Shown in pieces: positions 9,167 through 40,716 of a stretch of 64,000 nucleotides of DNA; the stretch's first letter is position 1; every line of letters begins with the position of its first letter. The stretch comes from Herbidospora cretacea (lineage in GTDB: Bacteria > Actinomycetota > Actinomycetes > Streptosporangiales > Streptosporangiaceae): assembly GCF_001570605.1 (NCBI RefSeq), contig NZ_BBXG01000025.1, positions 1-64,000 of the forward strand. Direction: 5' to 3'. The notes under the pieces are model-generated. The model did not search any database. It saw only the letters and a list, made by a program, of their open reading frames with translations, and was not told where the DNA came from. The translations under genes were made by a program, and so were the position numbers.

Positions 9167-9271
9167 CGGCCGCGTCCGCCCCGCGTCCCGACGTCAGATG
9201 CACTCCGTGGTGGATTTCCGGACAGCGGACCGATCCGCGCCGGAGCCGGGCCGGCCCGCTGCCCGAAAGTT

Positions 9272-10180
9272 TCAGCTCAGCACGTGGAGGACGAACCCCT
9301 CGGCGTTGACGCTCTTCCTGGTGAAGCCGAGTTTCTCCAGAAGACGGACGGAGCCGGTGTTCCCCTCGTGGGGGTCGGCGTGGAGGGGACGCACCTGCTC
9401 CTCTTCCAGGAACAGGGTCAGGGCGCGGGTGCCGACGCCCATCCCCCAGAACTCGCGGCCGAGCCAGTAGCCCAGGTAGCGCTGGTCGCCCTCCCACCAG
9501 GCGATGACGTTGCCGGCGATCCGGCCGCCGACCTCGACGGTCCGGACGCGGCAGGTCTCGTCGGAGAGGATCCGCTCGCGCCAGTGGGTCATGAACCTCT
9601 CACGCTCGCGGGACGGGAACCGGCTGCGCCGGGCGGCCTCGGGATCCTGTTCCTGGGCGTGGAAGGTCTCAAGATCGGAATCTCTGACTTCTCTCAGGCG
9701 AACGTGCATCCGCAGACGCGCGAGGTCGGTCATGTCCTTCTCCCTACGAGGCAGGCCCGGCACCCAGACGGGCATCATTTCCTTGATCTCGATCTGCGCG
9801 GCAACACCGATGACCGGGCAGGTCAGCTCACCCAGACGGCCCATGGGGGCGTCGAGCAGGTCAGCGGGCCAGGGCTCACCTTGATAAGGCCCGCCGGCCA
9901 CGGTCAGGCCGGGCCCGAGCAGGGCGAAGCTGACCTCGACCCCGTCTCTGACCAGGTCGCGCTGCTGGTCGCGGGGCGGCCCCGGCTGCGGGGCGAAGCG
10001 GCGCTCGACGAGGGCCCCCTCCAGGCGGTCGGCGTCGCCGGCCCAGGCGAACCAGTCGACATCGGTATGGTCGCGGGTCACCTCTCCGAGCGTGAAGTCC
10101 ATCGCCCAGCCGCCGCGCAGCCGGACGTCGAACCCCATTCCCGCGATCTCGGCGATCGCCGTCAACTGGCGGTCTCTCAC
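9272..10180 (-). CDS. Fusion of an aminoglycoside/lincosamide-type nucleotidyltransferase and a GNAT acetyltransferase
   Basis: A 302-residue protein with two catalytic domains. Residues 1 to about 160 are a nucleotidyltransferase like the ANT(2'')/LinA family: GGWAMDF at 23-29 and the metal-binding Asp40-x-Asp42 in DHTDVDW, ending with the family-typical EIKEMMPVWVPG. Residues about 160-302 are a GNAT domain with the acetyl-CoA loop in REFWGMGVGTRAL and the late motif NTGSVRLLEKLGF. The GTG at 10180 overlaps the upstream SDR stop (GTGA), indicating coupling. An internal ATG (residue 150) has GGGAG upstream and could give a free GNAT protein, but there is no stop between the domains. The drug or metabolite substrate is not known; antibiotic modification is only an inference. 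Confidence 0.8.
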   Translation of the reverse strand: MRDRQLTAIAEIAGMGFDVRLRGGWAMDFTLGEVTRDHTDVDWFAWAGDADRLEGALVERRFAPQPGPPRDQQRDLVRDGVEVSFALLGPGLTVAGGPYQGEPWPADLLDAPMGRLGELTCPVIGVAAQIEIKEMMPVWVPGLPRREKDMTDLARLRMHVRLREVRDSDLETFHAQEQDPEAARRSRFPSRERERFMTHWRERILSDETCRVRTVEVGGRIAGNVIAWWEGDQRYLGYWLGREFWGMGVGTRALTLFLEEEQVRPLHADPHEGNTGSVRLLEKLGFTRKSVNAEGFVLHVLS

Positions 10181-11073
10181 CGGTAGCCCGTGGTGTCGGC
10201 CGGTTTCCCGGGGTCCTGGACCTCGACCAGGTAGCGCCAGGCGTCGGGGCGGCTGCCGTCGACGTCGGTGAAGCCGTAGACCTGGGCGAGGCCGCCGCTG
10301 GAGAGCGACTGCCCGTTCCACCTGGCCCGACTGGGGTCCTGGACGAGCGCCGCGACGGCCCGGCCCACGTAGGCGGGCGACTCGGAGATCGCGAAGTGGG
10401 GCTCCGAAGTGATCGCCTCGCGCCAGGTCTCCTCGGTGACGCCGTAGTGCTCCAGCATCAGCTCCGACCGCAGCCAGCCCGGGGTCAGGGCCACCGCGGT
10501 GGCGCCCCGCGGCCCCAGCTCCTTGGACTGGGCGAACGCCATGCGGAGCACCGAGGACTTCACCAGGTCGTAGAAGAAGGAGACGCGGTAGTTGACGGCG
10601 TTGTAGTCGGCCGTGCCGTCGGTCATCTCCACGACCAGGCCGCCCTCGTTCCTCAGCAGCAGCGGCAGCGCGAAGTGGCTGGTGATGATGTGGGTGTCGA
10701 TCGCCAGGCGCAGCATGCGCATGCCGTCGTCGAGGTCGTGTTCCCACAGCGGCTTGTCCCAGCTGAACAGGTTCTCGCCGCCCCAGATGTTGTTCACCAG
10801 GACGTCGAGCCGCCCCTGCTCCCTGTCGATCCGCGCGACGAGCTCGCTGACCTGGTCTCTTTCGAGGTGGTCGACCTGGACGGGGATGCCGAGCCCGCCG
10901 GCCCGGGTGACGAGGTCGGCGGTCTCCTCGATGGTCTCGGGCCGCCGGTATTCCGACTGCTCGCTTCGGGTGGTGCGCCCGGTGACGTAGACGGTGGCCC
11001 CGATCGCGCCCAGTCCGGCGGCGATGCCTCTCCCCGCGCCGCGGGTCGCTCCAGCTACGAGTGCGATGGTCAT
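10177..11073 (-). CDS. SDR family oxidoreductase
   Basis: Short-chain dehydrogenase of 298 residues with the N-terminal cofactor motif GATRGAG (variant of TGxxxGIG) and TGRTTRS after beta-2, which suggests NADP(H) use. NNIWGGEN takes the place of the usual NNAG. The candidate catalytic Tyr-x3-Lys lies in the FFYDLVKSS region. The ATG at 11073 has GAGG eight bases upstream. It is the middle gene of a tight operon, five bases after the flavoprotein gene and overlapping the nucleotidyltransferase-GNAT gene. Substrate unknown. Confidence 0.85.
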   Translation of the reverse strand: MTIALVAGATRGAGRGIAAGLGAIGATVYVTGRTTRSEQSEYRRPETIEETADLVTRAGGLGIPVQVDHLERDQVSELVARIDREQGRLDVLVNNIWGGENLFSWDKPLWEHDLDDGMRMLRLAIDTHIITSHFALPLLLRNEGGLVVEMTDGTADYNAVNYRVSFFYDLVKSSVLRMAFAQSKELGPRGATAVALTPGWLRSELMLEHYGVTEETWREAITSEPHFAISESPAYVGRAVAALVQDPSRARWNGQSLSSGGLAQVYGFTDVDGSRPDAWRYLVEVQDPGKPADTTGYR

Positions 11074-11078
11074 GCGCC

Positions 11079-11552
11079 TCAGTCTGTCGGCCCCGACTGA
11101 CAAAATGACGCCAGCGCCTCCTGCCAGGAACCCGCGAACCGCACGCCTTCCTCCTTCAGCGCCGCCACCGCCGCCTTGTAGGGGGTCCGGGTGGCCAGGG
11201 CGTCGTTCACGAAGGGCACCAGCGTCACCGGGATGCCGAGCCCGGGAGCCTCCGCCAGCAGCCCCAGGGCATAGGTGTCGGTGATGCCCAGCGCGAACTT
11301 GTTCACGGTGTTGAACGTGGCCGGATAGACCACGATCGCGGTCGCCCGGGGCGGCTTGGGCTCGCTCGGGTGGCGGTAGTGGACGCGCACCTTGTTGCCG
11401 GTACGCCGCTCCAGGTCCGCCGCGTCGATGAAACCGGCCGCCTGGGGAGTGGCGACGATCTGCACCGTCCACGACCGCGACCGGGCTTCGGCGATCAGAT
11501 CGGGCAGGTCCCGCACCGGCCCGGCGGCGCAGACGATGACATAGAGGTCCAT
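11079..11552 (-). CDS. Flavoprotein, DFP/phosphopantothenoylcysteine decarboxylase-like
   Basis: A 157-residue protein of the HFCD flavoprotein type. It has a Rossmann-like opening (LYVIVCAAGPVRDLPDL), TPQAAGFID, and the FMN/substrate signature around YPATFNTVNKFALGITDTYALGLL, which corresponds to the PxNxNT-like segment of the family (here PATFNT). The length fits a free-standing flavin oxidoreductase rather than the bifunctional CoaBC. It is the first gene of the operon continuing into the SDR and the NTase-GNAT fusion. The ATG has GGGAGACCC upstream. Its role in that operon is unknown. Confidence 0.8.
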   Translation of the reverse strand: MDLYVIVCAAGPVRDLPDLIAEARSRSWTVQIVATPQAAGFIDAADLERRTGNKVRVHYRHPSEPKPPRATAIVVYPATFNTVNKFALGITDTYALGLLAEAPGLGIPVTLVPFVNDALATRTPYKAAVAALKEEGVRFAGSWQEALASFCQSGPTD

Positions 11553-18792: not shown

Positions 18793-18928
18793 CGCCGAGA
18801 TCTCGGCGGATCTGCCTAATCCTGGGCGTGTCGCCCAGGAGCCGGGGACCCACCTGAACCTGGGGTAAAGACGCCGCCGAGCGTCCGGGCTTCTCCGCCC
18901 GCATCCGTCAGCTAACCCGGCCGGCGCT
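18793..18928 (+). ncRNA. c-di-AMP riboswitch (ydaO-yuaA class)
   Basis: The leader carries the conserved ydaO-class blocks in order: CTAATCCTGGGCG, GGAGCCGGGGACCCA, TGGGGTAAAGACG, and near the 3' end CCGTCAGCTAACCCGG followed by CCGGCG. The 5' side contains an 18-bp self-complementary stretch, CCGCCGAGA-TCTCGGCGG (18792-18809), which can pair with itself or with the 3' CGGCG and so may form the switching helix. The ribosome site AGGAGAGGAG begins within two or three bases of the 3' boundary. The class binds cyclic di-AMP and usually turns off cell-wall hydrolase genes in actinobacteria. Confidence 0.9.
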
Positions 18929-18944
18929 AGGAGAGGAGTGGGCG

Positions 18945-19916
18945 CTGCCCGCCACGTCGCATCGTCGCAACCGCCGGCTGACCCTGCTGCCGGTGGCGGT
19001 CCTGCTGGCCGCGTTCTGCGCCGCGCTGGTGTCCGGCCCGGCGACCGCAGCTCCCAAGCCCGATGCGGACAAGCTGCGCAAGCAGCTCGCCAGCCAGGAG
19101 AAGAAGGTCAACTCGCTGATCGCCCAGTACCACGCGGCGCGCGAGGACCTCGCCAAGGCCAAGACCGCGTCGAAGACGGCGCAGGCGAAGCTGGAGAAGG
19201 CGCACACCGACTTCGCCGCCGCCCAGCGGGAGATGGCCCGGCTGGCCGGCCTCAGCTACCAGTCGATCCCCGGCAACGGCGGGATCATCCTGCCGCCCGG
19301 CATGGGCATGTCGCCGCTCGCGATGCAGCTCGGCAACGAGCAGGCCGCGATCGTGCGCAACTACAAGCAGAAGGAAGAGGCGCGAGCGAAGGCGGCGGCC
19401 GAGGCCAAGGCGCTGATCACCGAGATCGACGAGAAGTCCAAGGACATCGAGAAGCGCCGCGTCGAGGCCGAGGGCCTGATCGACGACATCAAGGACCGGC
19501 TCGACGAGCTGATCCCGATCGGGCCGGGCAAGCTCGCCAACGGCGGCTGGGCCCCGCAGCTGCCGACCGGGGCCGACAACATCACGGCCCGCACCCGCCT
19601 GATGCGCGAGGAGGCCAAGAGCGCCTTCAAGCTGAGCAACTCCATCGGCTGCTTCCGCGTCGACACGATGGGCGAGCACCCGCTCGGCCGCGCCTGCGAC
19701 TTCATGATGACGACCGGCGGCGCGGCGGCCACCGGCTCGGCCAAGGTCCTGGGCGACCAGCTGGCCGCTTGGGCCCTGAAGAACCGCACCAAGCTCGGCG
19801 TGAAGTACGTCATCTGGCGGCAGCGGATCAACAGCGGCACCGGCTGGCGCTTCATGAGCAACCGCGGCGGCAACACCGCCAACCATTACGACCACGTGCA
19901 CATCTCGATGTTCTGA
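18945..19916 (+). CDS. Secreted coiled-coil protein with peptidase-like C-terminal domain
   Basis: A 323-residue exported protein. A signal peptide spans about residues 1-37 (n-region RRNRR, hydrophobic VAVLLAAFCAALVSG, cleavage after ATA). A long charged coiled coil runs about 40-190 (KLRKQLASQEKKVNSL; KQKEEARAKAAAEAKALI). The C-terminal domain has GCFRVD, HPLGRACDFMM and YDHVHISMF, with His and Asp ligands like the M15/VanY-type zinc fold. The start appears to be CTG at 18945: AGGAGAGGAG lies six bases upstream, and it keeps the basic n-region. The only standard in-frame codon is GTG at 18993, which would delete that region. Riboswitch control and sequence suggest peptidoglycan remodelling. 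Confidence 0.85.
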   Translation: MPATSHRRNRRLTLLPVAVLLAAFCAALVSGPATAAPKPDADKLRKQLASQEKKVNSLIAQYHAAREDLAKAKTASKTAQAKLEKAHTDFAAAQREMARLAGLSYQSIPGNGGIILPPGMGMSPLAMQLGNEQAAIVRNYKQKEEARAKAAAEAKALITEIDEKSKDIEKRRVEAEGLIDDIKDRLDELIPIGPGKLANGGWAPQLPTGADNITARTRLMREEAKSAFKLSNSIGCFRVDTMGEHPLGRACDFMMTTGGAAATGSAKVLGDQLAAWALKNRTKLGVKYVIWRQRINSGTGWRFMSNRGGNTANHYDHVHISMF

Positions 19917-20765
19917 GCCCCGGGACCCGGCCGGCCCCCGCGTCCGACCCCCGCGGGACCGGCGGCCCGCCCAGCAAGTTCTCAGGTAGCCCGACTACCC
20001 TGCGAAGACCACTAGACCCAAAACCCCCACAAAGACCATCGAACCCCCCGTAAGCTCCCATTGACCAACTGCCCCACCCATCGATCACGCGGGTGTGCGC
20101 GCCCAGCCCCCGCGGCTCGCACACCCGCGTGATCATCCTTCGGAACCCGAAGTAAGTGATCATTTGCAGAAGCGCCCGAAGGTTTACCGAGTTTCATAAC
20201 GATCATGTTTCAGCGCTTTTCCGAGGCCTGGTTACGCGCATGTGAATTCTGCTGCAAATGACCGCCGTCCGGACCGCCGCTGGACCCGCCAACCTGGAGC
20301 CCCTACCGCCCTCCACCAGGAAAGTTCCCCTTCGCACCGTGTTTACCTTCAGCCCCTCGGGCCTTACAGATAAAAGTTTCAACGACAGCCCCGTTGACAC
20401 CCGACTTATCCCGAAATTAGCTTATGGAACGGTACACCTCGGGACCGCTGTGGCACCTGTTCCAGCTGTGACTCTTCGCAGCCGGGCGGGCGCGGATCCC
20501 GACTGCCTCCCTCCCATGCCACGCGAGAGGACCAGCGTGAGATCCGCTGATTTTTCCCAGGCCCGCGGTCACCGGGCCCGCCGTACCGGCTCGGCCATCG
20601 GGTTCACCCCTTCCTAGGGGCCCGACCTCTCAATTGACTTCGATGTCCGAAGTTGACGTTAAGCCGAACAAAAAGTGAGCCCCGCCGGTCGTCTCATTCA
20701 CTGAGATACACCGGAACGACTCGGGGCGTTCTTTCGCGTGCGAAAAAGCTCAGGAGAACAAGGTC
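19917..20765. other. Long regulatory intergenic region before the exopolysaccharide operon
   Basis: 849 bp without a supported gene. It holds a large hairpin (20083-20134), a -35-like TTGACA at 20394-20399 with TAGCTT 18 bp on, an inverted repeat ACTTCG-ATGTC-CGAAGT at 20637-20653 overlapping TTGACT, and TTTCGC-GT-GCGAAA at 20732-20745 just before the ribosome site AGGAG. The stretch 20135-20460 is less GC-rich than the flanks. Reading frames here (for example 20258-20617) lack ribosome sites and motifs. Confidence 0.5.
20083..20134. terminator. Large intergenic hairpin
   Basis: Perfect 17-bp inverted repeat GATCACGCGGGTGTGCG / CGCACACCCGCGTGATC around an 18-nt loop that can itself pair (GCC/GGC). 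It lies about 170 bp after the peptidase-like gene. No T-run follows on either strand. It may be a terminator, a cruciform or a protein site. Confidence 0.6.
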
Positions 20766-22031
20766 GTGGGGTCAGATTCATCGAATTGGCTCGATTCCGC
20801 CTATGAATGGCTGGTGAGGTCGAGCGCCAACGGAAGCTGGCGGGACATCATCCCGCTCGGGCTGGCGGGTCTGCTCGTCTGGGGGCTGTGGATCTACCGG
20901 GTCGTGCTGTCCCGGCTGGCCAAGCCCGTCGTCAACGGTTACCGCGCCTCCGTCTCGGTCGTGGTGCCGTCCTTCCGCGAGGACGCGGAGATCCTGGTCC
21001 GGTGCCTGGAGAGCTGGCTCTCCCAGAACCCGGGCGAAGTGATCATCGTCGTCGACATCGCGGACACCGAATGTCACGCGAAGCTCCGCGAGGTCAACGA
21101 CCCCCGGCTGCGCGTGCTCATCTACGAGCACTCGGGCAAGCGCTCGGCGCTGGGCGTCGGCATCCGCGCCGCCCGCGGCGACATCGTGGTGTTCGCCGAC
21201 TCCGACACCTGGTGGGAGCCCGGCCTGCTCGACGCGGTCCAGATGCCCTTCGAGGACCCGCAGGTCGGTGGCGTCGGCACCCAGCAGAACGTGTTCCAGC
21301 GCACCACCAGCGTCTGGCGGCGCATCGCCGACTGGCTGGTCAACCTGCGCTACTACGACTACGTGCCGGCCATGGGCAGCCGGGGTGGCGTGGCCTGCCT
21401 GTCCGGCCGCACCGCCGCCTACCGCCGGTCGGCGATCCTCCCGGTCGTCCACCACCTGGAGAACGAGTTCTTCCTCGGCCGCCGGTGCATCGCCGGTGAC
21501 GACGGCCGGCTCACCTGGCTGGTGCTGGCCTCCGGTTACAAGACGGTCCACCAGTCGTCGGCGCGGGCGATCTCGATGTTCCCGAGCTCCTTCCGGGCCT
21601 TCTTCAAGCAGCGCATCCGCTGGAGCCGCAACTCCTACCGCTGCTACCTGACCGCCCTGTGGAAGGGCTGGCTGTGGAAGACGCCGCTGGTCACCAAGGT
21701 GACCGTGCTGCAGATCCTGCTCACGCCGGTCACCATGGGCGTCACCCTGGGCTACCTGTTCTTCAGCCGCCTGGAGCTGACCCCCTGGGGCATCGGCACC
21801 TGCGTCGGCTGGCTGCTCATCGGCCGCGGCATCCGGGGCTGGTCGCACCTCAAGCGCCACCCGCAGGAGATCCTGCTGCTGCCCCTGACGACCCTGGTCA
21901 TCATCGGGATCGCGCTGCCGATCAAGCTCTACGCGTTCATCACCATGAACAAGCAGGGCTGGCTGACCCGCAAGTCCGACCAGGCCGGCTCGGAGGGCCA
22001 GACGGCCGCCACGCTGCAGGGACTGGCCTGA
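20766..22031 (+). CDS. Processive family 2 glycosyltransferase (polysaccharide synthase)
   Basis: Membrane synthase of 421 residues resembling HasA/NodC/Alg8 enzymes. An N-terminal membrane helix lies at about 30-47. The GT-A domain opens with SVVVPSFRED, has the metal-binding DSD at 145-147, GDD at 244-246 in place of the usual TED, and the processivity motif QRIRW at 282-286. Two or three C-terminal membrane helices follow (about 310-330, 345-360, 375-395). It likely polymerises a nucleotide sugar and extrudes the chain. The GTG at 20766 has AGGAG upstream. It is the first gene of a five-gene operon; the next start overlaps its stop by one base (TGATG). The product is unknown, but the UDP-glucose dehydrogenase in the operon points to a uronic-acid polymer. 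Confidence 0.9.
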   Translation: MGSDSSNWLDSAYEWLVRSSANGSWRDIIPLGLAGLLVWGLWIYRVVLSRLAKPVVNGYRASVSVVVPSFREDAEILVRCLESWLSQNPGEVIIVVDIADTECHAKLREVNDPRLRVLIYEHSGKRSALGVGIRAARGDIVVFADSDTWWEPGLLDAVQMPFEDPQVGGVGTQQNVFQRTTSVWRRIADWLVNLRYYDYVPAMGSRGGVACLSGRTAAYRRSAILPVVHHLENEFFLGRRCIAGDDGRLTWLVLASGYKTVHQSSARAISMFPSSFRAFFKQRIRWSRNSYRCYLTALWKGWLWKTPLVTKVTVLQILLTPVTMGVTLGYLFFSRLELTPWGIGTCVGWLLIGRGIRGWSHLKRHPQEILLLPLTTLVIIGIALPIKLYAFITMNKQGWLTRKSDQAGSEGQTAATLQGLA

Positions 22032-24157
22032 TGGCGGTGAACAGATCCGTCGCGGCGGCCGGGGCCGTGCTGCTCTGCTGCCTCACGATCGGCGTCTCGC
22101 CCGCCGTCGCCGCGCCGTCCCCCTCGGCCGACCCGTCCGCCTCTCCCTCGGCGAACGGGAAGCCCAAGAAGGACACCGGCATAGCGGAGACCATCCCCCG
22201 GTCCACCCCGGAGACCACCCCGGAGGCCGCGCCCAGCGCGGTGCCGAGCTCCGAGGCCGTGCCGAGCGCGGTGCCGAGCGCCGCGCCCAGCATCCCGAGC
22301 TCGGAGCCCGAGCCGCTCATCAAGATCTCCGCCGAGGACGCAGAGTCCCAGGCGGCGCTGGTCGACATGGAGGACCAGCGCATCCTGCAGACCCGTGCGG
22401 CCCTCACCGCGCTCCTGCAGCAGGGCGGGTTCTTCGCGGCGCAGCGCAAGGCCCCGCAGATCTTCTCCTCCTCGTTCGGCAAGACGATGGTGCTGCCGGC
22501 CCGCAACGACGAGAGGCCGTACACCCTGCGGGACCTCCAGTCGGTCGACAACGGCAAGTACGTCCGGCTGATGACCGACGGCTCCTACCTGCTGGGCATC
22601 CACGTCTTCGTGGCCGACGGGGCGACGCTCCAGCTCCGGGGTCCGGTGACGCTGCGGATGGGCAGCATCCCGGGGTCCTTCAGCTCGATCATCACCTTCG
22701 GCGGCAACATCGACATCAAGGGCACCGCGACCAAGCCGGTCCGGATCACCAGCTGGGACGTCAAGGCCAGCAAACCCGACCTCGACACCTCCGACGGGCG
22801 GGCCTACATCCGCGCGGTGGGCGGCCAGTTCGACATGGTGTACGGCCAGGTGTCCGACCTCGGCTTCTGGAGCGGACGTACCGGCGGCATCGCGCTGACC
22901 GGCACCGAACGCCCCTCCTCCGCCTACCGGCACCGCACCAAGACGCAGCGCCACCAGGACAAGGCCGAGCGGCTGGCCAGGAACACCAAGGACGAGGGCG
23001 GCGGCAACTACGGCGACGTCGAGACCTACCCGATCGGGCCCGGCACCGCTTCCCACGTGCCGGCCGACGAACTGGTCACCGGCAAGATCGCCAACAGCGT
23101 CATCACGCGGGACGCCTACGGGCTGTTCGTCTCCGGCTCGAACCAGACGCAGATCGTGAACAACAAGATCCGGGACAGCATCGTCCACGGCGTGTTCATG
23201 CACCGGTTCGCCAAGAACGCGACGATCTCCGACACCGAGGTGACCGGCAGCGGGGGCGACGGCTTCGTGCTCTCCAGGGCCACCGAGAAGGTCCAGGTCA
23301 ACAACTGCCTGGCCGAGAACAACGGGCGCAACGGCTTCACCCTCGACGGCCGGGCGCTGGCCCACGGCCCGTCGGCCTCGGGTGAGTCACTGGCCGTCTA
23401 CGGCGACAGCTCGGTCAACAACAGCGTGGCCAAGGGCAACGGCCGCTACGGCATCGAGGTGATGGGCGGCATCCGGCAGGCCGTGCAGACCAGCGAGGTC
23501 ATCGGCGGCGACATGGGCATCGTGGTCCGGGCCGGCGCCGAGGCCGTGCAGCTGTCGGGCAACAAGCTCAGCGGCCAGACGCGCCAGGGCATCGCGCTGC
23601 GCGACGGCGTGAGCAACGCCCACGTCTCCGGCAACACCATCACCGGCGGCCCGACCGGCGTGTACATGCGCGACTCCAACGGCCAGGTGATCGGCAACAA
23701 GATCACCACCGTGAAGAACCCGAACGCCCACGGCGTCACCATCGTCGGCGCGGCCGACGGCTCCGAGGTCGCCCGCAACACGATCGTCGGCGCGGGCACC
23801 AGCGCGGTCAGCACCGCCAGGTCCAGCGGCGACGTGAGCGACCACAACAACGACGAGGAGAAGTGGGTCGACACGTCGACCTTCTGGAGCAAGGCCAAGA
23901 GATACGTCAAGCCCATGAACGTCATCTGGGCCGGCGTGATCCTGCTCATCCTCGTCTCGGCGATCCGGTCGCGCGGCGTCATGGAGCGCCGCCGCAACGG
24001 CATCGTCGACCCGTACGAGCTGCAGAAGGCGATGGAGGACCGTCCGGCCTGGACCCTGGGCAACGCGGCCACCTCCGAGCCGAGCAGCGGGTTCAACGGA
24101 CGCCACAGGCCGACGCAGCCGGCGGTCCCGACGGTGACCGTGGGAGGCGGGCGATGA
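22031..24157 (+). CDS. Exported, membrane-anchored right-handed beta-helix protein (paralogue A)
   Basis: 708 residues: signal peptide about 1-28 (VAAAGAVLLCCLTIGV, cleavage near AVAA), a Pro/Ser/Glu-rich linker to about 110, then a segment shared with the next gene (LVDMEDQRILQTRAALTALL). A beta-helix of about 220-610 has many NxI/GxG coils (GNKITTVKN, SGNTITGGPTGVY). One membrane helix lies at about 627-645 (VIWAGVILLILVSAI), with a 63-residue cytoplasmic tail. The tail carries IVDPYELQ and MEDRPAW, also conserved in paralogue B. By context and fold it may be an AlgG-like epimerase, a lyase or a chain-guiding protein, but the AlgG catalytic DPHD motif is absent. The stop overlaps paralogue B by 4 bp. 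Confidence 0.8.
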   Translation: MAVNRSVAAAGAVLLCCLTIGVSPAVAAPSPSADPSASPSANGKPKKDTGIAETIPRSTPETTPEAAPSAVPSSEAVPSAVPSAAPSIPSSEPEPLIKISAEDAESQAALVDMEDQRILQTRAALTALLQQGGFFAAQRKAPQIFSSSFGKTMVLPARNDERPYTLRDLQSVDNGKYVRLMTDGSYLLGIHVFVADGATLQLRGPVTLRMGSIPGSFSSIITFGGNIDIKGTATKPVRITSWDVKASKPDLDTSDGRAYIRAVGGQFDMVYGQVSDLGFWSGRTGGIALTGTERPSSAYRHRTKTQRHQDKAERLARNTKDEGGGNYGDVETYPIGPGTASHVPADELVTGKIANSVITRDAYGLFVSGSNQTQIVNNKIRDSIVHGVFMHRFAKNATISDTEVTGSGGDGFVLSRATEKVQVNNCLAENNGRNGFTLDGRALAHGPSASGESLAVYGDSSVNNSVAKGNGRYGIEVMGGIRQAVQTSEVIGGDMGIVVRAGAEAVQLSGNKLSGQTRQGIALRDGVSNAHVSGNTITGGPTGVYMRDSNGQVIGNKITTVKNPNAHGVTIVGAADGSEVARNTIVGAGTSAVSTARSSGDVSDHNNDEEKWVDTSTFWSKAKRYVKPMNVIWAGVILLILVSAIRSRGVMERRRNGIVDPYELQKAMEDRPAWTLGNAATSEPSSGFNGRHRPTQPAVPTVTVGGGR

Positions 24158-26019
24158 AGAAGGCCTGGATCACGTTCTTCGTGCTGCTCCTGCTCGGGGC
24201 GGGTGTGTGGGGGTACCTGTCCTACGCCGACCAGCCCGAGCCGATCCCGGCGGTCGACGACGTCAGCGCCGCCGACGCCAAGCAGCAGTCGAACCTGGTC
24301 GACCAGGAGGACCTGCGCATCATGCAGACCCGGGCGACGCTGATGTCGGCGATCGCCCGCGGCGGCCCCAACGCGCAGCGGGCCCGGCAGCCGCACATCT
24401 CCAGCTCGGCCAACGGCCAGACGCTGGTGCTGCCGTCGCGGCGCGAGCCCTACCGGGTCGCCGACCTGGAGAAGCTGGGCGGGGAGTACTTCCAGAAGCA
24501 GACCGACGGGTCGTACGTCCTGGGCATCAACCTGTTCGTCGGCCCGAACGCCAAGCTGGTGCTGCAGAACGCGACCGGCCCCCTGGTGATCCGGATGCGC
24601 AGCGAACCGGGGTCGTTCACCACGATCGTCGGCTTCGGCGCCAGCATCCGCATCAACGGCTCGCCGCAGAACCCGGTGCGCCTCACGAGCTGGGACCCGA
24701 ACATCAACACGGCCGACGCGCGCGTCAACGACGGCCGAGCCTACGTCCGGGTCATCGGCGGCGAGCTGCGGATGAGCCACACCCAGGTCGAGTACCTCGG
24801 GTTCTGGAGCGGCTCGACCGGCGGCCTCGCGCTGACCGGCAGCGACCGCACCACCCTGGACGCCAAGGTCACCACCGCGACCCCGCCCACCACCGAGAAG
24901 GTGCTGCTCCCGGGCGGCGCGCTGCTGCCCCGCATGGGCGACGACGACCAGGTGGAGATCACCGACGGCAAGGGCAAGAACAAGGTCGCCTACAAGCTGC
25001 CGGAGGCCAACCTGGTCACCGGTGAGATCACCGACACCGCGATCACCGGCAACGCTTACGGGATCTTCATCACCGCGTCCAACCAGACCCGCATGGCCAA
25101 CGTGCAGGTGAGCGGGAGCCTGGTCGACGGGGTGCTGCTGCACCGGTTCGCCCGCAACGCCACGATCGAGAACACCACCGTGACCGGGTCGCGCGGCGAC
25201 GGGTTCGTACTCTCGCGCGGCACCCAGAACGTGACGATCACCGGCTCGGGCGCGGTCTCCAACGGCGGCAACGGCTTCACCATCAGCGGCCTGCCGCTGG
25301 CGCGCGGCCCGTCGGCCTCGGGCGAGTCGCTGACCAGCTTCGGCGGCAGCTCGGTGACCAGCTCGTGGGCCAGGGAGAACAAGCGCTACGGCGTGGAGAT
25401 CCAGGGCGGCGTGGACCTGTCGGTGCAGACTACCGAGGTCACCGGCGGGCAGACGGGCATCGTGGTGAACAAGGACGCGACCGGGGTCCGGGTCTCCGGC
25501 AACCGGATCAGCGGCCAGTGGAGCCAGGGCATCGCGGTCCGCGACGGCGTCACCGGCGCCAAGATCGTCGGGAACATCGTCGGCAACACCCCCACCGCCA
25601 TCTACCTGCGCAACGCCGAGGCCGAGGTGACCGGCAACACGGTCAACCAGGCGACCCTGCACGGCGTCTCGGTGCTGGGCGTGGCGACCGGCAGCACGAT
25701 CACCGGCAACACGCTGGGCGGCGCCGGCCGCAGCGCGCTGGACACCGACCGCGCGACCGGGATCGCCGCGGTGACCACCAACAACGTCGACGGCTGGCAG
25801 GACACGGCGGACTTCTGGACCACGGTCAAGCGCATCGCCAAGCCGATGAACCTGATCTGGTTCGGCGTCATCCTGGTCATCGTGATCTCCGCGATCCGGG
25901 CCCTGGGCAGCAACGGGCCCCGCGTCGGCCGTCGCATCGTCAACCCGTACGAGAGGCAGGCCGTCATGGAGGAGCGCCCGGTCTGGTCGCTCACCGGGAC
26001 GTCCGCCGAGAGGACCTGA
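24154..26019 (+). CDS. Membrane-anchored right-handed beta-helix protein (paralogue B)
   Basis: 621 residues, clearly homologous along its length to the preceding gene, so the pair arose by tandem duplication. An N-terminal membrane anchor lies at about 4-23 (AWITFFVLLLLGAGVWGYL). The shared LVDQEDLRIMQTRATL segment and a beta-helix of about 150-550 follow, then a second membrane helix at about 563-581 (LIWFGVILVIVISAI) and a 40-residue tail. The tail has IVNPYERQ and MEERPVW. GDGFVLSRGTQNV and NGFTISGLPLARGPSASGES are nearly identical to paralogue A. The ATG overlaps the previous stop (ATGA). The active site, if any, was not located. Likely function is modification or passage of the nascent polysaccharide outside the membrane. 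Confidence 0.8.
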   Translation: MKKAWITFFVLLLLGAGVWGYLSYADQPEPIPAVDDVSAADAKQQSNLVDQEDLRIMQTRATLMSAIARGGPNAQRARQPHISSSANGQTLVLPSRREPYRVADLEKLGGEYFQKQTDGSYVLGINLFVGPNAKLVLQNATGPLVIRMRSEPGSFTTIVGFGASIRINGSPQNPVRLTSWDPNINTADARVNDGRAYVRVIGGELRMSHTQVEYLGFWSGSTGGLALTGSDRTTLDAKVTTATPPTTEKVLLPGGALLPRMGDDDQVEITDGKGKNKVAYKLPEANLVTGEITDTAITGNAYGIFITASNQTRMANVQVSGSLVDGVLLHRFARNATIENTTVTGSRGDGFVLSRGTQNVTITGSGAVSNGGNGFTISGLPLARGPSASGESLTSFGGSSVTSSWARENKRYGVEIQGGVDLSVQTTEVTGGQTGIVVNKDATGVRVSGNRISGQWSQGIAVRDGVTGAKIVGNIVGNTPTAIYLRNAEAEVTGNTVNQATLHGVSVLGVATGSTITGNTLGGAGRSALDTDRATGIAAVTTNNVDGWQDTADFWTTVKRIAKPMNLIWFGVILVIVISAIRALGSNGPRVGRRIVNPYERQAVMEERPVWSLTGTSAERT

Positions 26020-26021
26020 CC

Positions 26022-27236
26022 ATGCGCATCGAGATCGACATCGACAAGAAGACCCTGATCGGGGCGGCGGCCGGTGCGGCCTTCACGATCCTGATCGTGG
26101 TCATCATGTACGGGATCTTCGGCGGCGACGGCGGTCAGGAGCAACAGCCCGGGATGAAGGTCGAGAACATCCAGCCCGACAACGGCGCCCGTTCTCTCCC
26201 GACGCTGGGCACCGACGACGGCGCGGTCGAGGAGGACTTCCCGGAAGAGGAGGAGCCGGTGCGGAACGAGGAGGAGAACAAGGACTTCGAGCCGTTCGTG
26301 GCCAGCCAGCAGCCTCCGGACATCGCGATCCCCGACGGCGAGGGCAAGATCGCCTGTCCCGAGGCGACCGTGACCGTCACCACCGCCGAGGAGCTCACCG
26401 GCGCGCTCGCGCAGGCCCAGCCGGGCGACGTGATCTTCATGGAGCCGGGCGAGTACCAGGGCCATTTCGTGGCCGCCGCGAAGGGCACCAAGGACCAGCC
26501 CATCTTCGTCTGCGGCTCGCGGGACGCGATCATCGACGGCGGCGGCGTCAAGGAGGGCTACGCCTTCCACCTGAACGAGGCCGACTACTGGCGGCTGATC
26601 GGCTTCACCGTCCGGCACGCCCAGAAGGGCGTGATGGCCGACAAGAGCAACTTCAACGTCGTCCAGGACCTCGACGTGAACCACATCGGCGACGAGGGCA
26701 TCCACTTCAGGAACTTCAGCTCCGACAACATCGCCCAGTACAACATCATCTGGGGTACCGGCCTGCGCCGTGACAAGTACGGCGAGGGGGTCTACTTCGG
26801 CACCGCCGAGAGCAACTGGGCCACCTTCTCCGGCGGCCAGATGGACAAGAGCGACCGCAACATCGCGCGCGGGAACGTCATCCGCGCCACCGCCGAGTCC
26901 ATCGACATCAAGGAGGGGACCACCGGCGGAAAGATCATCGGAAACATCTTCGACGGCTCGGCCCTCACCGGCGACGGACACAACGACAGTTGGGTGGACG
27001 TCAAGGGGAACGGCTACCTGATCGAACGCAACACCGGCCGCGGGACCAGCGCGGACGGCTTCCAGACCCACAAGATCATCAATGGCTGGGGAACCGGGAA
27101 CACCTTCCGGCTCAACGTCATCGATCTGGGCGGTTCAGGGGGCTACGGCATCAACGACACCGCAGGCGGCAACACCATCGCCTGCGACAACGAGGTGACC
27201 GGCGGCCCGCTCACCAAAAAGAGCGAATGCTCCTGA
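26022..27236 (+). CDS. Membrane-anchored beta-helix protein, polysaccharide lyase-like
   Basis: 404 residues with a single N-terminal membrane anchor (about 11-33, IGAAAGAAFTILIVVIMYGIF), an acidic linker (EEDFPEEEEPVRNEEENK) and a beta-helix domain from about 110 on. The domain resembles chondroitinase B/alginate lyase (PL6-like) and related beta-helix folds: PGEYQGHFV, the DEGIHFR coil, GEGVYFG, SIDIKEG, SADGFQTHKI. It is not a copy of paralogues A and B and lacks their tail. It begins two bases after the preceding stop. Lyase or epimerase activity is an inference from fold and neighbourhood; no catalytic Lys/Arg pair was assigned. Confidence 0.75.
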   Translation: MRIEIDIDKKTLIGAAAGAAFTILIVVIMYGIFGGDGGQEQQPGMKVENIQPDNGARSLPTLGTDDGAVEEDFPEEEEPVRNEEENKDFEPFVASQQPPDIAIPDGEGKIACPEATVTVTTAEELTGALAQAQPGDVIFMEPGEYQGHFVAAAKGTKDQPIFVCGSRDAIIDGGGVKEGYAFHLNEADYWRLIGFTVRHAQKGVMADKSNFNVVQDLDVNHIGDEGIHFRNFSSDNIAQYNIIWGTGLRRDKYGEGVYFGTAESNWATFSGGQMDKSDRNIARGNVIRATAESIDIKEGTTGGKIIGNIFDGSALTGDGHNDSWVDVKGNGYLIERNTGRGTSADGFQTHKIINGWGTGNTFRLNVIDLGGSGGYGINDTAGGNTIACDNEVTGGPLTKKSECS

Positions 27237-27257
27237 GTTTCTGCGAGAGAACTGACA

Positions 27258-28589
27258 ATGACTGAAACCGCACTCCCCCGGCTCACCGTCATCGGGACCG
27301 GGTATCTCGGAGCCACTCACGCGATCTGCATGGCCTCCCTCGGCTACGAGGTGGTCGGCCTGGACACCGACCCCCGCAAGATCGAGCGGCTGCAGTCCGG
27401 CGAGGTGCCCTTCTTCGAGCCGGGCCTGCCGGAACTGCTCGCCAAGACGATGGAGACCGGCCGGCTCCGGTTCACCACCTCGGTGGAGGAGGCCGCCGCC
27501 CACGGCGACGTCCACTTCATCTGCGTGGGCACCCCGCAGAAGCCCGGCATGGACGCCGCCGACCTGACCTACGTCGACGCGTCCGTGGCCGCCCTCGCCC
27601 CTCTCCTGGACCGCAAGGTGCTGGTCGTCGGCAAGTCGACCGTCCCCGTCGGTACCGCCGCACGACTGACCGCGCTGGTCAAGGAGCTGGCCCCGGCCGG
27701 CGACGAGATCGAGCTCGCCTGGAACCCCGAGTTCCTGCGTGAGGGCTTCGCCGTGGACGACACCCTGCGCCCCGACCGGCTCGTGTTCGGCGTGGCCTCC
27801 GACTGGGCGCGCGAGCAGCTGGAGGCGTCGTTCCGGCCGATCATCGATTTGGGCACCCCGGTCGTGGTGACCGACCTGGCCACCTCGGAGCTGGTGAAGG
27901 TGGCGGCGAACTCGTTCCTGGCCACGAAGATCTCCTACATCAACGCGATGGCGGAGATCTGCGAGGCCACCGGGGCCGACGTCCGCCACCTGGCCAAGGC
28001 GCTGGCCCACGACGACCGCATCGGCGGCCGGTTCCTCCAGCCGGGTCTGGGCTTCGGCGGCGGCTGCCTGCCCAAGGACATCCGCGCCTTCGCCCACCGG
28101 GCCGAGGAGATCGGCGTCGGCCAGGCCGTGTCGTTCCTGCGCGAGGTGGACGCGATCAACCGCCGCCGCCGCTCGCGCACGATCGACCTGGTCCGCGAGA
28201 TGCTCGGCGGCCAGCTCAACGGCAAGAAGGTGGCCTGCCTGGGCGCGGCCTTCAAGCCGAACAGCGACGACATCCGCGACGCCCCGGCGCTCGACGTGGC
28301 CCGCACCATGCACGGCCTGGGCGCCAACGTCCGCGTCTACGACCCGGCCGCGCTCGACAACGCCCGCCGCGCCTACCCCGAGCTGCGCTACGGCACCAGC
28401 GCCATGGACGTGGCGGCCGACGCCGACGTCGTGGTGCTGCTGACCGAGTGGGCCGAGTTCCGCGAGATCGAGCCCTCCGCCCTGGCCGCCGTGGTGAAGC
28501 ACCGCCGCATCGTGGACGGCCGCCACGCCCTGGACGCCGAGTTCTGGCGTGCCGAGGGCTGGGAGTACCGGGCGCTCGGCATGCCGTAA
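27258..28589 (+). CDS. UDP-glucose/GDP-mannose 6-dehydrogenase family protein
   Basis: 443-residue NAD-dependent nucleotide-sugar dehydrogenase producing a uronic-acid donor. The Rossmann motif GTGYLG is at 13-18, STVPVGT in the middle, NPEFLREG before the hinge, and the catalytic Cys270 in GFGGGCLPKD. Overall it looks like UDP-glucose dehydrogenase; GDP-mannose dehydrogenase (AlgD) has a similar active site and cannot be excluded. It closes the operon and is followed by a strong terminator. Its presence strongly suggests that the GT2 synthase uses UDP-glucuronate or a related uronate. Confidence 0.93.
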   Translation: MTETALPRLTVIGTGYLGATHAICMASLGYEVVGLDTDPRKIERLQSGEVPFFEPGLPELLAKTMETGRLRFTTSVEEAAAHGDVHFICVGTPQKPGMDAADLTYVDASVAALAPLLDRKVLVVGKSTVPVGTAARLTALVKELAPAGDEIELAWNPEFLREGFAVDDTLRPDRLVFGVASDWAREQLEASFRPIIDLGTPVVVTDLATSELVKVAANSFLATKISYINAMAEICEATGADVRHLAKALAHDDRIGGRFLQPGLGFGGGCLPKDIRAFAHRAEEIGVGQAVSFLREVDAINRRRRSRTIDLVREMLGGQLNGKKVACLGAAFKPNSDDIRDAPALDVARTMHGLGANVRVYDPAALDNARRAYPELRYGTSAMDVAADADVVVLLTEWAEFREIEPSALAAVVKHRRIVDGRHALDAEFWRAEGWEYRALGMP

Positions 28590-28598
28590 ATCCGCCTG

Positions 28599-28636
28599 AA
28601 GACAGGGGACACGCCATCGCGTGTCCCTTTTGTCTT
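28599..28636 (+). terminator. Intrinsic terminator of the exopolysaccharide operon
   Basis: Nine-base-pair stem GGGACACGC / GCGTGTCCC, loop CATC, followed by TTTTGTCTT. An outer AAGACA/TGTCTT pairing extends the stem across a small internal loop. It begins 10 bp after the dehydrogenase stop and is the most classical rho-independent terminator in the window. Confidence 0.92.
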
Positions 28637-37584: not shown

Positions 37585-38073
37585 ATGCGCGAGATCCGGT
37601 ACGTCGGAGATCCGGTGCTGCGCACCCCGGCCGAGCCGGTGTCCGACTTCGACAAGGACCTGCGCCGCCTGATCGACGAGATGTTCGCGACGATGTACCT
37701 GGCCGACGGCGTCGGTCTCGCGGGCCCCCAGATCGGCGTGCCGAGACGCCTTTTCGTGTACGACATCAGCAACCGCAAGGGCGCCCTGGTCAACCCCGAG
37801 CTCGTCATCGACGACGACGCCGAGATCCTCGAGGAAGAGGGGTGTCTGTCCGTCCCGAGCAAGGAGACGGGCAAGCCTCTCTACTCCCCCACCCCGCGCG
37901 CGTCGGGCGTCACCGTCCGGGGCTTCGACCGGCTCGGCCGCCCGCAGGAGATCAAGGCGCGCGGCATGCTGGCCCGCTGCTTCCAGCACGAGTTCGACCA
38001 CCTCAACGGCACTCTCTACGTCGACCACCTGCCGAAGGACGCCGCCCGCCGGATCATGCTCCAGGCCCCCTAG
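37585..38073 (+). CDS. def: Peptide deformylase
   Basis: 162-residue metalloenzyme removing the N-formyl group from nascent proteins. All three motifs are present: GVGLAGPQIG at 42-51, EGCLSVP at 85-91 with the metal-ligand Cys, and HEFDH at 135-139. The ATG at 37585 follows ACGGAGCG. It overlaps the dehydrogenase gene by 4 bp tail-to-tail. A single-gene unit divergent from rpiB. Confidence 0.96.
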   Translation: MREIRYVGDPVLRTPAEPVSDFDKDLRRLIDEMFATMYLADGVGLAGPQIGVPRRLFVYDISNRKGALVNPELVIDDDAEILEEEGCLSVPSKETGKPLYSPTPRASGVTVRGFDRLGRPQEIKARGMLARCFQHEFDHLNGTLYVDHLPKDAARRIMLQAP

Positions 38074-39275
38074 GGAACCTCCCAGCGGCTGGGCTCGGGC
38101 CGCTCCAGGCGGTAGGTCGCGTCCAGCACCGGCTGCTCCGGCCTCAGCCACCCGAGGTCGCCGCCCAGCGTGTGCACGATCACGAGGTCCCACGGTTCCG
38201 ACCGGGGATCGGGCGCGCGCTTGAGGAGCTCTCCCCCGACCGGGAGCTCGACCACCAGCGGATCGGTGAACTCCACCCGCGCGCCCTGCCGCCGCAGCTC
38301 GGCGATGATCGGCGTCGCCGGCGTCTCCCGCGCGTCGGCCACCCCCGGCTTGTACGACACCCCCGCTATCAGCACGTTGGCGTCCCGGATGTCCCGCCCG
38401 GACGACGCCAGCATCTCCAGCGCCCGCCCCACCACCGCCTGCGGCCGGGCCGCGATGGCCCCCATCGCGGCGGTCAGCACCGTCGGCGCCGCCCGGCGCA
38501 GCCGCCACAGCAGGTAGTAGGGGTCGGAGGGCACGCACTGCCCGCCGACGCCGGGCCCCGGGTCGAACCGCATGAACCCGAACGGCTTGGTGGCCGCCGC
38601 CTCGATCACCTCGACCGGGTCCACCCCGACCTCGCGGGCGATGTCGGCGAACTCGTTGGCCAGCGCGATGTTGACCGCGCGGAAGGAGTTCTCCAGCAGC
38701 TTGCACAGCTCGGCCGCCTCCGGCGAGCTGACCCGGTGGACCTGCGGCGCGACCCGCTTGAGCAGTTCCTCGGCACGGTCGCCGGCCGTGGCCGAGGCGG
38801 GCCCGAGGACCCTCGGCACGTGTTCGAGCGGCCGCCCGCCCGGCCCCGGGTCGACCCGTTCGGGGCTGAACACCACGTCGACGTCCCTGAGGTGGTCGAT
38901 CAGCAGGTCGCGGGTGGAGCCGACGTAGGTCGTCGAGGTGAGGATCACCAGCTGCCCCGGCACGGCGTGCGCGACGACCGTCCCGCAGGCCGCTCTGAGG
39001 GCGTTGAGATCGGGGACGTGGTGCTCGTCCACCGGCGTCGGGACGCAGATCACCACGGCGTCGGCGGCGGAGATCGCGGCCGGGTCGGTGGTGGTCTCCA
39101 GGCGGTGGCGGCGCAGCCGGGCGCGGTCGCGGGGCGACAGGTCGGCCTCGCCCTCGCGGATGGCGGCGAGCCGGGCGGCGCTGACGTCGTAGCCGGTCAC
39201 CCGGCAGCCCGCTTCGAGGAAGGCCAGCGCGGTGGGCAGTCCGACGTAGCCCAGTCCCACGATCAAGACGTACAT
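38070..39275 (-). CDS. Nucleotide-sugar dehydrogenase, WecC/UDP-ManNAc-dehydrogenase-like
   Basis: 401-residue UDP-glucose/GDP-mannose dehydrogenase family protein distinct from the one in the exopolysaccharide operon. The Rossmann motif is GLGYVG at 7-12. STTYVGSTRDLL, FSPERVDPG and the active-site segment VGGQCVPSDPYYL resemble the WecC/TviB class (VGGHCxPxDPYYL), but the usual His is Gln and the following residue is Ser. It would make a UDP-N-acetylhexosaminuronate or related donor. The ATG at 39275 is preferred. It lies 37 bp beyond the aldehyde dehydrogenase gene and may be co-transcribed with it. Confidence 0.88.
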   Translation of the reverse strand: MYVLIVGLGYVGLPTALAFLEAGCRVTGYDVSAARLAAIREGEADLSPRDRARLRRHRLETTTDPAAISAADAVVICVPTPVDEHHVPDLNALRAACGTVVAHAVPGQLVILTSTTYVGSTRDLLIDHLRDVDVVFSPERVDPGPGGRPLEHVPRVLGPASATAGDRAEELLKRVAPQVHRVSSPEAAELCKLLENSFRAVNIALANEFADIAREVGVDPVEVIEAAATKPFGFMRFDPGPGVGGQCVPSDPYYLLWRLRRAAPTVLTAAMGAIAARPQAVVGRALEMLASSGRDIRDANVLIAGVSYKPGVADARETPATPIIAELRRQGARVEFTDPLVVELPVGGELLKRAPDPRSEPWDLVIVHTLGGDLGWLRPEQPVLDATYRLERPEPSRWEVP

Positions 39276-39312
39276 GACTTTGTGTATCCGGGCCCGGGTC
39301 AAGCCGGAAAGC

Positions 39313-40716
39313 TCACATCTGCAAAGACTTGACCTCAAGGAACTCGTCGAACCCGGCCTCGCCCAGCTCCCGGCCGACCCCCGACTGCCCGTAGCCGCCG
39401 AAGGGCGCCAGGGGGTTGAACCTGCCGCCGTTGATCGCGACCTGGCCGGTGCGCAGGCGGCGGGCCACGCCGACGGCCTGCTCCTCGTCCGCGGCCCAGA
39501 CGGCCCCCGCGAGGCCGTAGGGGGTGCCGTTGGCGATCGAGACGGCCTCGTCGACGGTGCCGAAGGGGACGATCGACAGCACCGGGCCGAAGATCTCCTC
39601 CTGCTCGATCGTCATGCCCGGCGCGACCCCGGCGAAGACGGCGGGTTCGACGTAGTAGCCGCGCTCGTGAGGGGACTCGTCGCTCCCGGCGACCAGCCGG
39701 GCGCCCTCCTCCTGGCCGACGTTGAGGTAGCGGACCACCCGGTCGCGCTGGACCCGCGACACCAGGGGGCCGATGCGGGTGTCGTCGGCGAACGGATCGC
39801 CCACCACGTATTTGCGGGAGAACGCGACGGCCATCTGGACGGCCTCGTCGTAGTGGTCCCACTGGACGAGCATCCGCGACCAGGCCGAGCAGGTCTGGCC
39901 CGAGTTGCTGTAGGCGTTGGCGACCCCGGCCTTGACCGCGGTCTCCAGGTCGGCGCCGGGCAGGATCACGTTGGCCGACTTGCCGCCGAGCTCCAGCGCG
40001 ACCCGCTTCACCGTGTCGCCCGCCAGCACCGCGACCCGGCGGCCGGCGGCGGTCGAGCCGGTGAAGGAGACCATGTCGACGTCGGGGTGGGCGGCCAGGG
40101 TCTCGCCGACGGTCCGGCCTGGACCGCTGACCAGGTTGAAGACGCCCGGCGGCAGCCCGGCCTCCGCCAGCACCTCGGCCAGCGCGTAGGCCGCCAGCGG
40201 GGCCACCTCGCTGGGCTTCAGCACGACCGTGCAGCCGGCCGACAGCGCGGCGCCGACCTTGCAGATCGCCTGGTGGAGGGGGTAGTTCCAGGGGGTGATG
40301 GCGGCGACCACGCCCACCGGCTCCCGGACCACCAGGGAGTTGCCGACGCGGGTGGTCTCGGCCTGCCGCCCGGCCATGCCGGCGAAGGACCTGAGCACTC
40401 CGGCGGGCATCTGCGTCTGGGTGCGCAGCGCGAAGCCCAGGGGCGCGCCCATGTCGGTCGCGATGATCTCCGCGATCGTCCGGGCGCGGGCCTCGATCAG
40501 CTCGGCCGCCCGTAAGAGCAGCGCGCCGCGCTCCTCCGGGGGCGTGGCCGCCCACCGGGGGAACGCGCGCCGGGCGGCGGTGACCGCCTCGGCCACGTCG
40601 TCGGCGGATCCGGCGGGGACCCGGTCGACGACCTCCTCGGTCGCCGGGTTGACGACGTCGACACCCTCGCCGGACGACGAGGGCGTCCACGCACCGTTCA
40701 CGAAGAGCTGACGCAT
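39313..40716 (-). CDS. Aldehyde dehydrogenase family protein
   Basis: 467-residue NAD(P)-dependent aldehyde dehydrogenase. PWNYPLHQ and VLKPSEVAP belong to the cofactor site, FTGSTAAGR is the Rossmann loop, LELGGKSANV holds the general-base Glu, and NSGQTCSAWSR holds the catalytic Cys. GPVLSIVPF and PFGGYGQSGVGRELG are usual C-terminal motifs. Substrate unknown. The ATG at 40716 follows AAGGATGGGG; another ATG nine bases earlier is too close to a ribosome site. Confidence 0.92.
   Translation of the reverse strand: MRQLFVNGAWTPSSSGEGVDVVNPATEEVVDRVPAGSADDVAEAVTAARRAFPRWAATPPEERGALLLRAAELIEARARTIAEIIATDMGAPLGFALRTQTQMPAGVLRSFAGMAGRQAETTRVGNSLVVREPVGVVAAITPWNYPLHQAICKVGAALSAGCTVVLKPSEVAPLAAYALAEVLAEAGLPPGVFNLVSGPGRTVGETLAAHPDVDMVSFTGSTAAGRRVAVLAGDTVKRVALELGGKSANVILPGADLETAVKAGVANAYSNSGQTCSAWSRMLVQWDHYDEAVQMAVAFSRKYVVGDPFADDTRIGPLVSRVQRDRVVRYLNVGQEEGARLVAGSDESPHERGYYVEPAVFAGVAPGMTIEQEEIFGPVLSIVPFGTVDEAVSIANGTPYGLAGAVWAADEEQAVGVARRLRTGQVAINGGRFNPLAPFGGYGQSGVGRELGEAGFDEFLEVKSLQM

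Follow-up and report, generated by a model that had tools for sequence, protein, structure and literature searches.

Gram-negative bacteria are known to edit exopolysaccharides in the alginate manner, an epimerase and a lyase acting on the chain where it is exported. In Pseudomonas and Azotobacter, the alginate operon (AlgD, Alg8, Alg44, AlgG, AlgL) brings together a synthase, a dehydrogenase, an AlgG-type beta-helix protein and a lyase, AlgL, of polysaccharide lyase (PL) family PL5. We analyzed a stretch of 64,000 nucleotides (the window) from Herbidospora cretacea (contig NZ_BBXG01000025.1, positions 1 to 64,000; genome of 8.28 Mb in 36 contigs), in which five plus-strand genes between 20766 and 28589 form a comparable cluster. 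They encode, in order, a family 2 glycosyltransferase (GT2), two beta-helix proteins (BH1 and BH2), a PL31-type lyase and a nucleotide-sugar dehydrogenase. An earlier annotation made from the letters alone, hereafter the sequence-only reading, had remarked on five closely spaced genes with overlaps among the first three. These were indeed present: GT2 and BH1 overlap by 1 nt and BH1 and BH2 by 4 nt, while gaps of 2 and 21 nt follow BH2 and the lyase gene, respectively.

The locus differs from the alginate operon in several respects. Its synthase is HAS/NodC-like (HAS, hyaluronan synthase) rather than Alg8/Alg44-like, as judged from best-matching models and structures without an Alg8 sequence; its dehydrogenase is by similarity of the UDP-glucose rather than the GDP-mannose type; its lyase is of type PL31 rather than PL5; and it has two beta-helix paralogues, both predicted to be membrane-tied. 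Pfam and NCBIfam revealed no O-acetylase or outer-membrane gene among the five, so that the absence of outer-membrane parts noted by the sequence-only reading holds for these genes, no genome-wide search for such parts having been made. The lyase is homologous to the alginate lyase PsAly (PDB 6kfn) and shares its catalytic Tyr and Lys and its metal-site residues, but it has a predicted membrane anchor and a linker and neighbours a synthase, whereas PsAly adjoins chitinase genes. The GT2 has the catalytic motifs of hyaluronan synthase and NodC, its best sequence matches, but carries a GWLTR motif and is partnered by epimerase-like and lyase genes. The Gram-positive pel operon, in the passages available to us (PMC7112168), is likewise a trimmed Gram-positive form of a Gram-negative synthase-dependent system, but its genes are unrelated and its sugar is different. 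A trio on the Curtobacterium plasmid pTCL (7905-12476 of the fetched locus L082) is also alike, with a GT2 (31% identity), a glycosyl hydrolase and a UDP-glucose/GDP-mannose dehydrogenase, but its listed annotation contains no beta-helix protein or polysaccharide lyase; this trio may be a related system that has a hydrolase where the present locus has a lyase. No description of the present gene set was found in open PMC papers (titles and abstract openings, among the matches listed), a scope that excludes subscription literature. According to the passages available of an operon survey covering 1733 genomes, most alginate operons are in Pseudomonas (PMC7112194). Synthase-dependent exopolysaccharide systems are known; this combination of genes appears to be a new form among them.

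We propose, with a probability of roughly 0.6, that the five genes constitute a conserved actinobacterial module for polyuronate secretion, producing an epimerised glucuronan that is edited by BH1 and BH2 and trimmed by the lyase. The dehydrogenase would convert UDP-glucose to UDP-glucuronic acid (UDP-GlcA), which the GT2 would polymerise on the cytoplasmic side and extrude; the chain is most likely a glucuronan with beta-1,4 linkages. BH1 and BH2, tied to the membrane at its outer face, would bind the chain as it emerges and invert C5 in part of its residues, turning D-glucuronate into L-iduronate (in a mannuronan the product would be L-guluronate); by covering the chain, they would also guard it. 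The membrane-tied lyase would cut stalled or misrouted chains and trim their length. The analogy is with AlgG in the alginate export complex and with a lyase that clears stray polymer, as portrayed in the parts of PMC4444821 available to us. In this scheme we infer the donor sugar, the linkage, the epimerase and lyase activities on the polymer, the polymer's identity and the way in which BH1 and BH2 share the work.

The proposal starts from direct observations: gene content and order, their conservation, the homologies of the products and their active-site residues. The GT2 (E<=1e-90) was found in 30/394 genomes of the class, 37/297 of the family and 4/396 of a phylum-wide draw, BH2 in 21/296 class genomes and the lyase in 4/296 genomes of a phylum-wide draw (both E<=1e-15); the H. 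cretacea genome is included in every count, and some genomes occur in more than one draw. Each of the 21 BH2-positive class genomes is also one of the 30 with the GT2. GT2 orthologues were recovered from nine families within the class and from a further three in the phylum; the system, which the sequence-only reading had placed in a mycelial Gram-positive bacterium, thus extends beyond one mycelial genus. We read around the GT2 in 29 of the 30 class genomes (28 fetched stretches and the window; G275, of the same genus, was left out), and a BH gene was present in 28/29 (L142, at a contig edge, being the exception), a lyase gene in 27/29 (L057 has none in its stretch and L142 ends) and a dehydrogenase gene in 23/29. 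In the family, 26 of the 37 GT2-positive genomes were read and 11 were left unread. Altogether, 61 fetched loci have a linked gene set, with a GT2 in 60 of them. In a set of 35 loci, all picked by the GT2, BH is present in 33 (L142 and L158 end) and the lyase in 31 (L142, L158 and L167 end; L150 has none). The five-gene set envisaged by the sequence-only reading thus recurs across actinobacteria, but its order varies: the dehydrogenase gene is divergent from that of GT2 in family f17, and the lyase gene is on the other strand in L068. Recurrence in distant actinobacterial families shows that the gene set is more than chance. Pairwise distances of the GT2 correlate with those of BH (r=0.94), PL31 (r=0.91) and the dehydrogenase (r=0.83), with the six Herbidospora loci left out and the first copy per locus used, although shared ancestry alone can yield such values.

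Family f17 has in addition a PL14-type lyase gene in 14/14 GT2 loci (Pfam run on three of them). In the passages available, PL14 includes alginate lyases (PMC8286568), and passages from another source assign to it a member resembling a 1,4-polyglucuronic acid lyase. Across 26 representative loci, the neighbour groups found at least four times were the transporter-like MFS-like (5) and ABC-ATPase-like (4) groups, PL14 (5) and a frame that overlaps PL14 on the opposite strand (4); no other group reached four in this comparison, which ignored matches above 85% identity and in which the MFS and ABC labels are our own reading.

The window GT2 matched Pfam GT2 models, and its best curated model was NodC (2.1e-41; 142 bits vs. 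a cut-off of 550). Its best solved relatives in the PDB were hyaluronan synthases, both for the single protein and for a 34-sequence profile (6.6e-19 and 1.2e-29, respectively). The DSD, GDD and QRIRW motifs, listed by the sequence-only reading along with Cys270 of the dehydrogenase, were all found; DSD, GDD and Q..RW are invariant in 61/61 GT2 rows, and GWLTR near the C-terminus, whose counterpart in HAS is presumably WGTR, in 34/34. A search of the genome for the PilZ domain, which Alg44 would need, gave no match, which argues against a standard Alg44. The dehydrogenase has three UDPG/MGDP domains (Pfam), and its catalytic Cys is kept in 51/53 rows (one Ala, one gap). It scored 333 bits to UDP-glucose dehydrogenase vs. 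194 bits to the solved GDP-mannose dehydrogenase, and its nearest curated equivalog models were TuaD and AglM. Similarity therefore favours UDP-glucose over GDP-mannose specificity. Dehydrogenases near the GT2 in different loci matched varied UDP-glucose dehydrogenase models best, TuaD (window and L072), PRK15057 (L070) or AglM (L150), and it is for this reason, together with the HAS/NodC-like synthase, that an epimerised glucuronan seems likelier to us than alginate. Because glucuronate and mannuronate have the same C4-C5 geometry, the chemistry of PL31 and AlgG-type enzymes could apply to glucuronan as well. Two other dehydrogenase genes were noticed in this genome, one of UDP-glucose dehydrogenase type on contig C21 (L080, 8793-10088; 66-67% identical to the operon copy) and one nucleotide-sugar dehydrogenase-like on the minus strand of the window (38070-39338; 26% identical).

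BH1 and BH2 are identical at 280/605 aligned positions (46%), and a hydropathy scan placed a membrane segment at either end of each, as expected of the two paralogous beta-helix proteins with membrane helices that had been described. Pfam found beta-helix repeats in both. A profile built from 53 BH proteins (both window proteins plus 51 of the 82 available from the loci; L068, L143, L146 and L150 left out) had mannuronan C5-epimerases in the first eight places among PDB sequences (AlgG 1.8e-14, AlgE4 1.2e-9), with NosD ninth (4.1e-7); in the comparison with AlgG and NosD suggested by the sequence-only reading, this profile prefers the epimerases. The AlgG model was matched at E<=0.01 by 22 of the 53. 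Alone, BH1 matched AlgG structures weakly (PDB, E=0.0075), and in this alignment His391 falls on the His of the AlgG DPHD motif and Arg416 on an arginine, presumably number 345 of AlgG. In the parts of the AlgG study available to us, the DPHD His is the probable base, an arginine acts against negative charge and Tyr314 coordinates water (PMC4444821). Of 89 BH rows, 84 retain the His and 84 the Arg, with both present in 81 (72/77 for each residue without the six Herbidospora loci); many of these rows are closely related, so the counts overstate the independent evidence, and one row is masked. In the 53 profile proteins, the residues conserved at 90% or more include H330, R331 and R355 of BH2.

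The link between AlgG and the window's own BH family depends on intermediates, since a profile restricted to the 33 proteins of that family is weak and aligns in another register (see below). BH proteins beside the same GT2 in L149, L072 and L150 matched the AlgG model (4.4e-15, 1.6e-14 and 4.1e-25, respectively, the cut-off not being reached) and have the motifs YGFDPHD...FSR, GFDAH...LAR and YGIDPHT; that of L149 retains both the full DPHD and Tyr314. An alignment of the window BH group with these three spans 432 columns (E=2.4e-39), and its His and Arg fall on those of L149. When rows were aligned singly to the AlgG core, 60/89 took this register for both residues and one for the His only. 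These alignments show, by right-handed beta-helix homology via the intermediates, that BH1 and BH2 are diverged AlgG relatives, and epimerase activity is likely. A C-terminal TM-like (transmembrane-like) segment was seen in 79/89 BH rows. In L150, an 814-aa fusion (8820-11264, minus strand) has an AlgG-like beta-helix between two TM segments, followed by a GT2, with TM positions read by eye, and lies 2 nt behind a 307-aa dehydrogenase without C-terminal domain. With this topology the beta-helix would face outwards and the GT2 domain inwards; the fusion ties the two functions together.

We rejected the NosD copper-chaperone identity for the BH proteins, because the Pfam NosD match is to a generic repeat in 53/53 members and the 53-protein profile favours epimerases; the 33-protein profile ranks NosD between AlgE and AlgG. 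In L143 and L146, of family f17, Gln or Asn replaces the otherwise kept His, and these orthologues are perhaps inactive copies. A search of a named genome collection with exact peptide patterns of BH2, which could show close kin only, gave six relatives, all from Herbidospora species (best segments 90-93% identical). Elsewhere in the H. cretacea genome (contig C7; L081, 8601-10496), a beta-helix-like protein in a different neighbourhood matches the AlgG model with 31.8 bits.

The last of the three beta-helix proteins, which the sequence-only reading had called lyase-like, could be assigned more precisely through its match to PsAly (E=4.5e-48). PsAly is classed in PL31 in the passages available (PMC8286568); Pfam and NCBIfam scans returned no PL31 model for the window lyase, and the label comes via PsAly. 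According to the parts of the PsAly study at hand, Tyr184 and Lys221 are catalytic, Lys128, His154, Arg156, Asp250 and Lys252 are conserved, and Glu181, Glu216 and Asp219 form the first cation site (PMC6796002). All ten positions have equivalents in the window lyase, and across 61 lyase rows nine of them are invariant, including the catalytic Tyr and Lys, with the Asp250 equivalent in 59/61. The passages on ClGP, which is 61% identical to the GH5-PL31 enzyme CelAly, describe alginate and glucuronan lyase activity, and leave the domain acting on glucuronan unassigned to GH5 or PL31 (PMC13235733). The hydropathy scan gave a single N-terminal membrane segment in the window lyase. Lipobox-like motifs replace a plain TM segment in the 13 f17 lyases and in those of L068, L070 and L149, and two rows (L060 and the second of L140) have neither, in a scan that is crude and with protein starts that are uncertain. 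Membrane tethering is thus predicted for the lyase as it is for BH1 and BH2. An identity with the mannuronate lyase of PDB 7o79, presumably a PL6 enzyme, was rejected (E=0.0059 vs. 4.5e-48 for 6kfn). Two PL31-type genes stand in tandem before the dehydrogenase gene in L159 and L172, and a PL31-like stretch (43%) lies under a discoidin-domain-annotated gene on two Streptomyces anthocyanicus plasmids (NZ_CP109229.1 and NZ_CP109572.1).

Several points weigh against an epimerised glucuronan. The fetched stretches of L057, L058, L059, L068, L069 and L149 (6/29) contain no dehydrogenase gene, all dehydrogenase equivalog scores, including those to TuaD and AglM, fall short of the cut-offs, and none of the results contained a GDP-mannose dehydrogenase model, of which the library may hold none. 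PsAly itself prefers polymannuronate in the passages seen (PMC6796002). The AlgG model gives BH1 21.9 bits vs. a cut-off of 700, and BH2 alone has no epimerase match in the PDB up to E=1. The window motifs, VHGVFMHR and VDGVLLHR, have lost three of the four DPHD letters and Tyr314, which is kept in 2/89 rows; the His is absent in L068, L070, L143 and L146 and the Arg in L068, L069, L073 and L150 (the last with Asp in the column and an adjacent Arg). The 33-protein profile is weak against the PDB (AlgE6 7.5e-5, AlgE4 2.0e-4, NosD 8.3e-4, AlgG 0.013), its matches to epimerases sit in a different register, and 28/89 rows singly aligned to the AlgG core prefer another register too. The GT2 kin bear on the sugar as well: HAS and NodC use UDP-N-acetylglucosamine (UDP-GlcNAc), and a GlcNAc-containing polymer is possible by this analogy. 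The same losses of DPHD, Tyr314 and, in some orthologues, of His or Arg, with generic Beta_helix/NosD repeats as the sole Pfam result in 53/53, would fit BH proteins that are non-catalytic guides or scaffolds leading the chain past the wall, with the lyase as sole modifier and any of the polymers discussed here. The joint retention of His and Arg in most rows, and that of H330, R331 and R355 in the profile, argue for more than a scaffold, and we regard this possibility as doubtful, though a real one.

Other readings would change the polymer or the role of the lyase. A true Gram-positive alginate, in which GDP-mannose is oxidised, the GT2 makes mannuronan, BH1 and BH2 turn mannuronate into guluronate and the PL31 enzyme clears mannuronan, would agree with the AlgG kinship of the BH proteins and with the substrate preference of PsAly. 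It is improbable in view of the dehydrogenase scores, the HAS/NodC-like GT2 and the missing PilZ match, and the one genome match to MBOAT, the superfamily of AlgI, is on another contig. For the alginate- or glucuronan-like system of the sequence-only reading, there is support as regards a membrane synthase, beta-helix proteins of alginate type that are tied to the membrane, a lyase and a dehydrogenase, but not for alginate in the strict sense. The HAS and NodC matches would suit a hyaluronan- or heparosan-like heteropolymer, with a GT2 alternating GlcA and GlcNAc and BH proteins epimerising GlcA to iduronic acid within the chain. The lyases at these loci, PL31 and in f17 also PL14, are of types described for alginate and polyglucuronate in the passages seen, and neither Pfam nor NCBIfam gave a hyaluronan-lyase model in the five genes, so that we consider such a heteropolymer quite unlikely. 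A catabolic or dispersal role for the lyase, with neighbours that are unrelated to it, appears highly improbable, given the short gaps and the recurrent linkage across families, and because most linked lyases carry an anchor of membrane or lipoprotein-like type. It would account for L071, which has a lyase without a GT2, and for a second PL31-type gene in this genome (L079, 9366-10361, contig C7; 62% identical, signal-like start, no anchor seen), a possible dispersal enzyme with no GT2 or BH match in the 20-kb stretch around it.

The features of the locus are collected in the table. The inverted repeat upstream had only a sub-threshold miRNA-like match and is possibly the terminator of the preceding gene. 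A terminator scan of the window gave 3 sites vs. 4.0 expected from shuffles, so the hairpin behind the dehydrogenase gene is notable by its position alone; a promoter scan of the window found none. Since the repeat and the terminator-like hairpin flank the five genes, these are likely to form one operon with a single transcript. An operon-controlling riboswitch was ruled out: the c-di-AMP riboswitch at 18803-18940 (72 bits) precedes the gene at 18993-19916. That gene lies outside the operon, has a weak NlpC/P60-family match and was matched, among the 61 loci, only in the six from Herbidospora.

Table. Features of the candidate polyuronate locus (window coordinates).
Feature	Position	Strand	Basis or remark
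Inverted repeat, strong	20079..20140		17-nt matching arms, read from sequence; upstream of operon
Ribosome-binding-site-like AGGAGA	20752..20757	+	Read from sequence; 8 nt upstream of GT2 GTG start
GT2, processive synthase, 421 aa, HAS/NodC-like	20766..22031	+	Pfam, NodC model, PDB matches
BH1: signal/TM segment, AlgG-related beta-helix, C-terminal TM, short tail	22031..24157	+	
BH1 His391	23201-23203	+	Aligned with AlgG catalytic His
BH1 Arg416	23276-23278	+	Aligned with an AlgG Arg
BH2: BH1 paralogue, N- and C-terminal TM segments	24154..26019	+	
BH2 His330	25141-25143	+	Equivalent of BH1 His391
BH2 Arg355	25216-25218	+	Equivalent of BH1 Arg416
PL31-type polysaccharide lyase, predicted N-terminal TM anchor	26022..27236	+	PsAly homology, hydropathy
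Lyase Tyr258	26793-26795	+	PsAly Tyr184
Lyase Lys297	26910-26912	+	PsAly Lys221
UDP-glucose 6-dehydrogenase-type enzyme	27258..28589	+	
Dehydrogenase catalytic Cys270	28065-28067	+	
Intrinsic-terminator-like hairpin, T-rich tail	28604..28629	+	Terminator scan; 3' of dehydrogenase

A broader possibility, which we consider less likely than not, is that a widespread class of Gram-positive polymer, a glucuronan partly epimerised to L-iduronate, is made by a HAS-like synthase and edited at the membrane by a new family of glucuronan C5-epimerases, having evolved in parallel to alginate. If the proposal is true, the five-gene form, which lacks outer-membrane parts, would be a minimal system for the cooperation of synthase, epimerase and lyase and would provide candidate enzymes for making glucuronan and iduronan. 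It would also indicate that actinobacteria produce a matrix polymer that has gone unrecognised.

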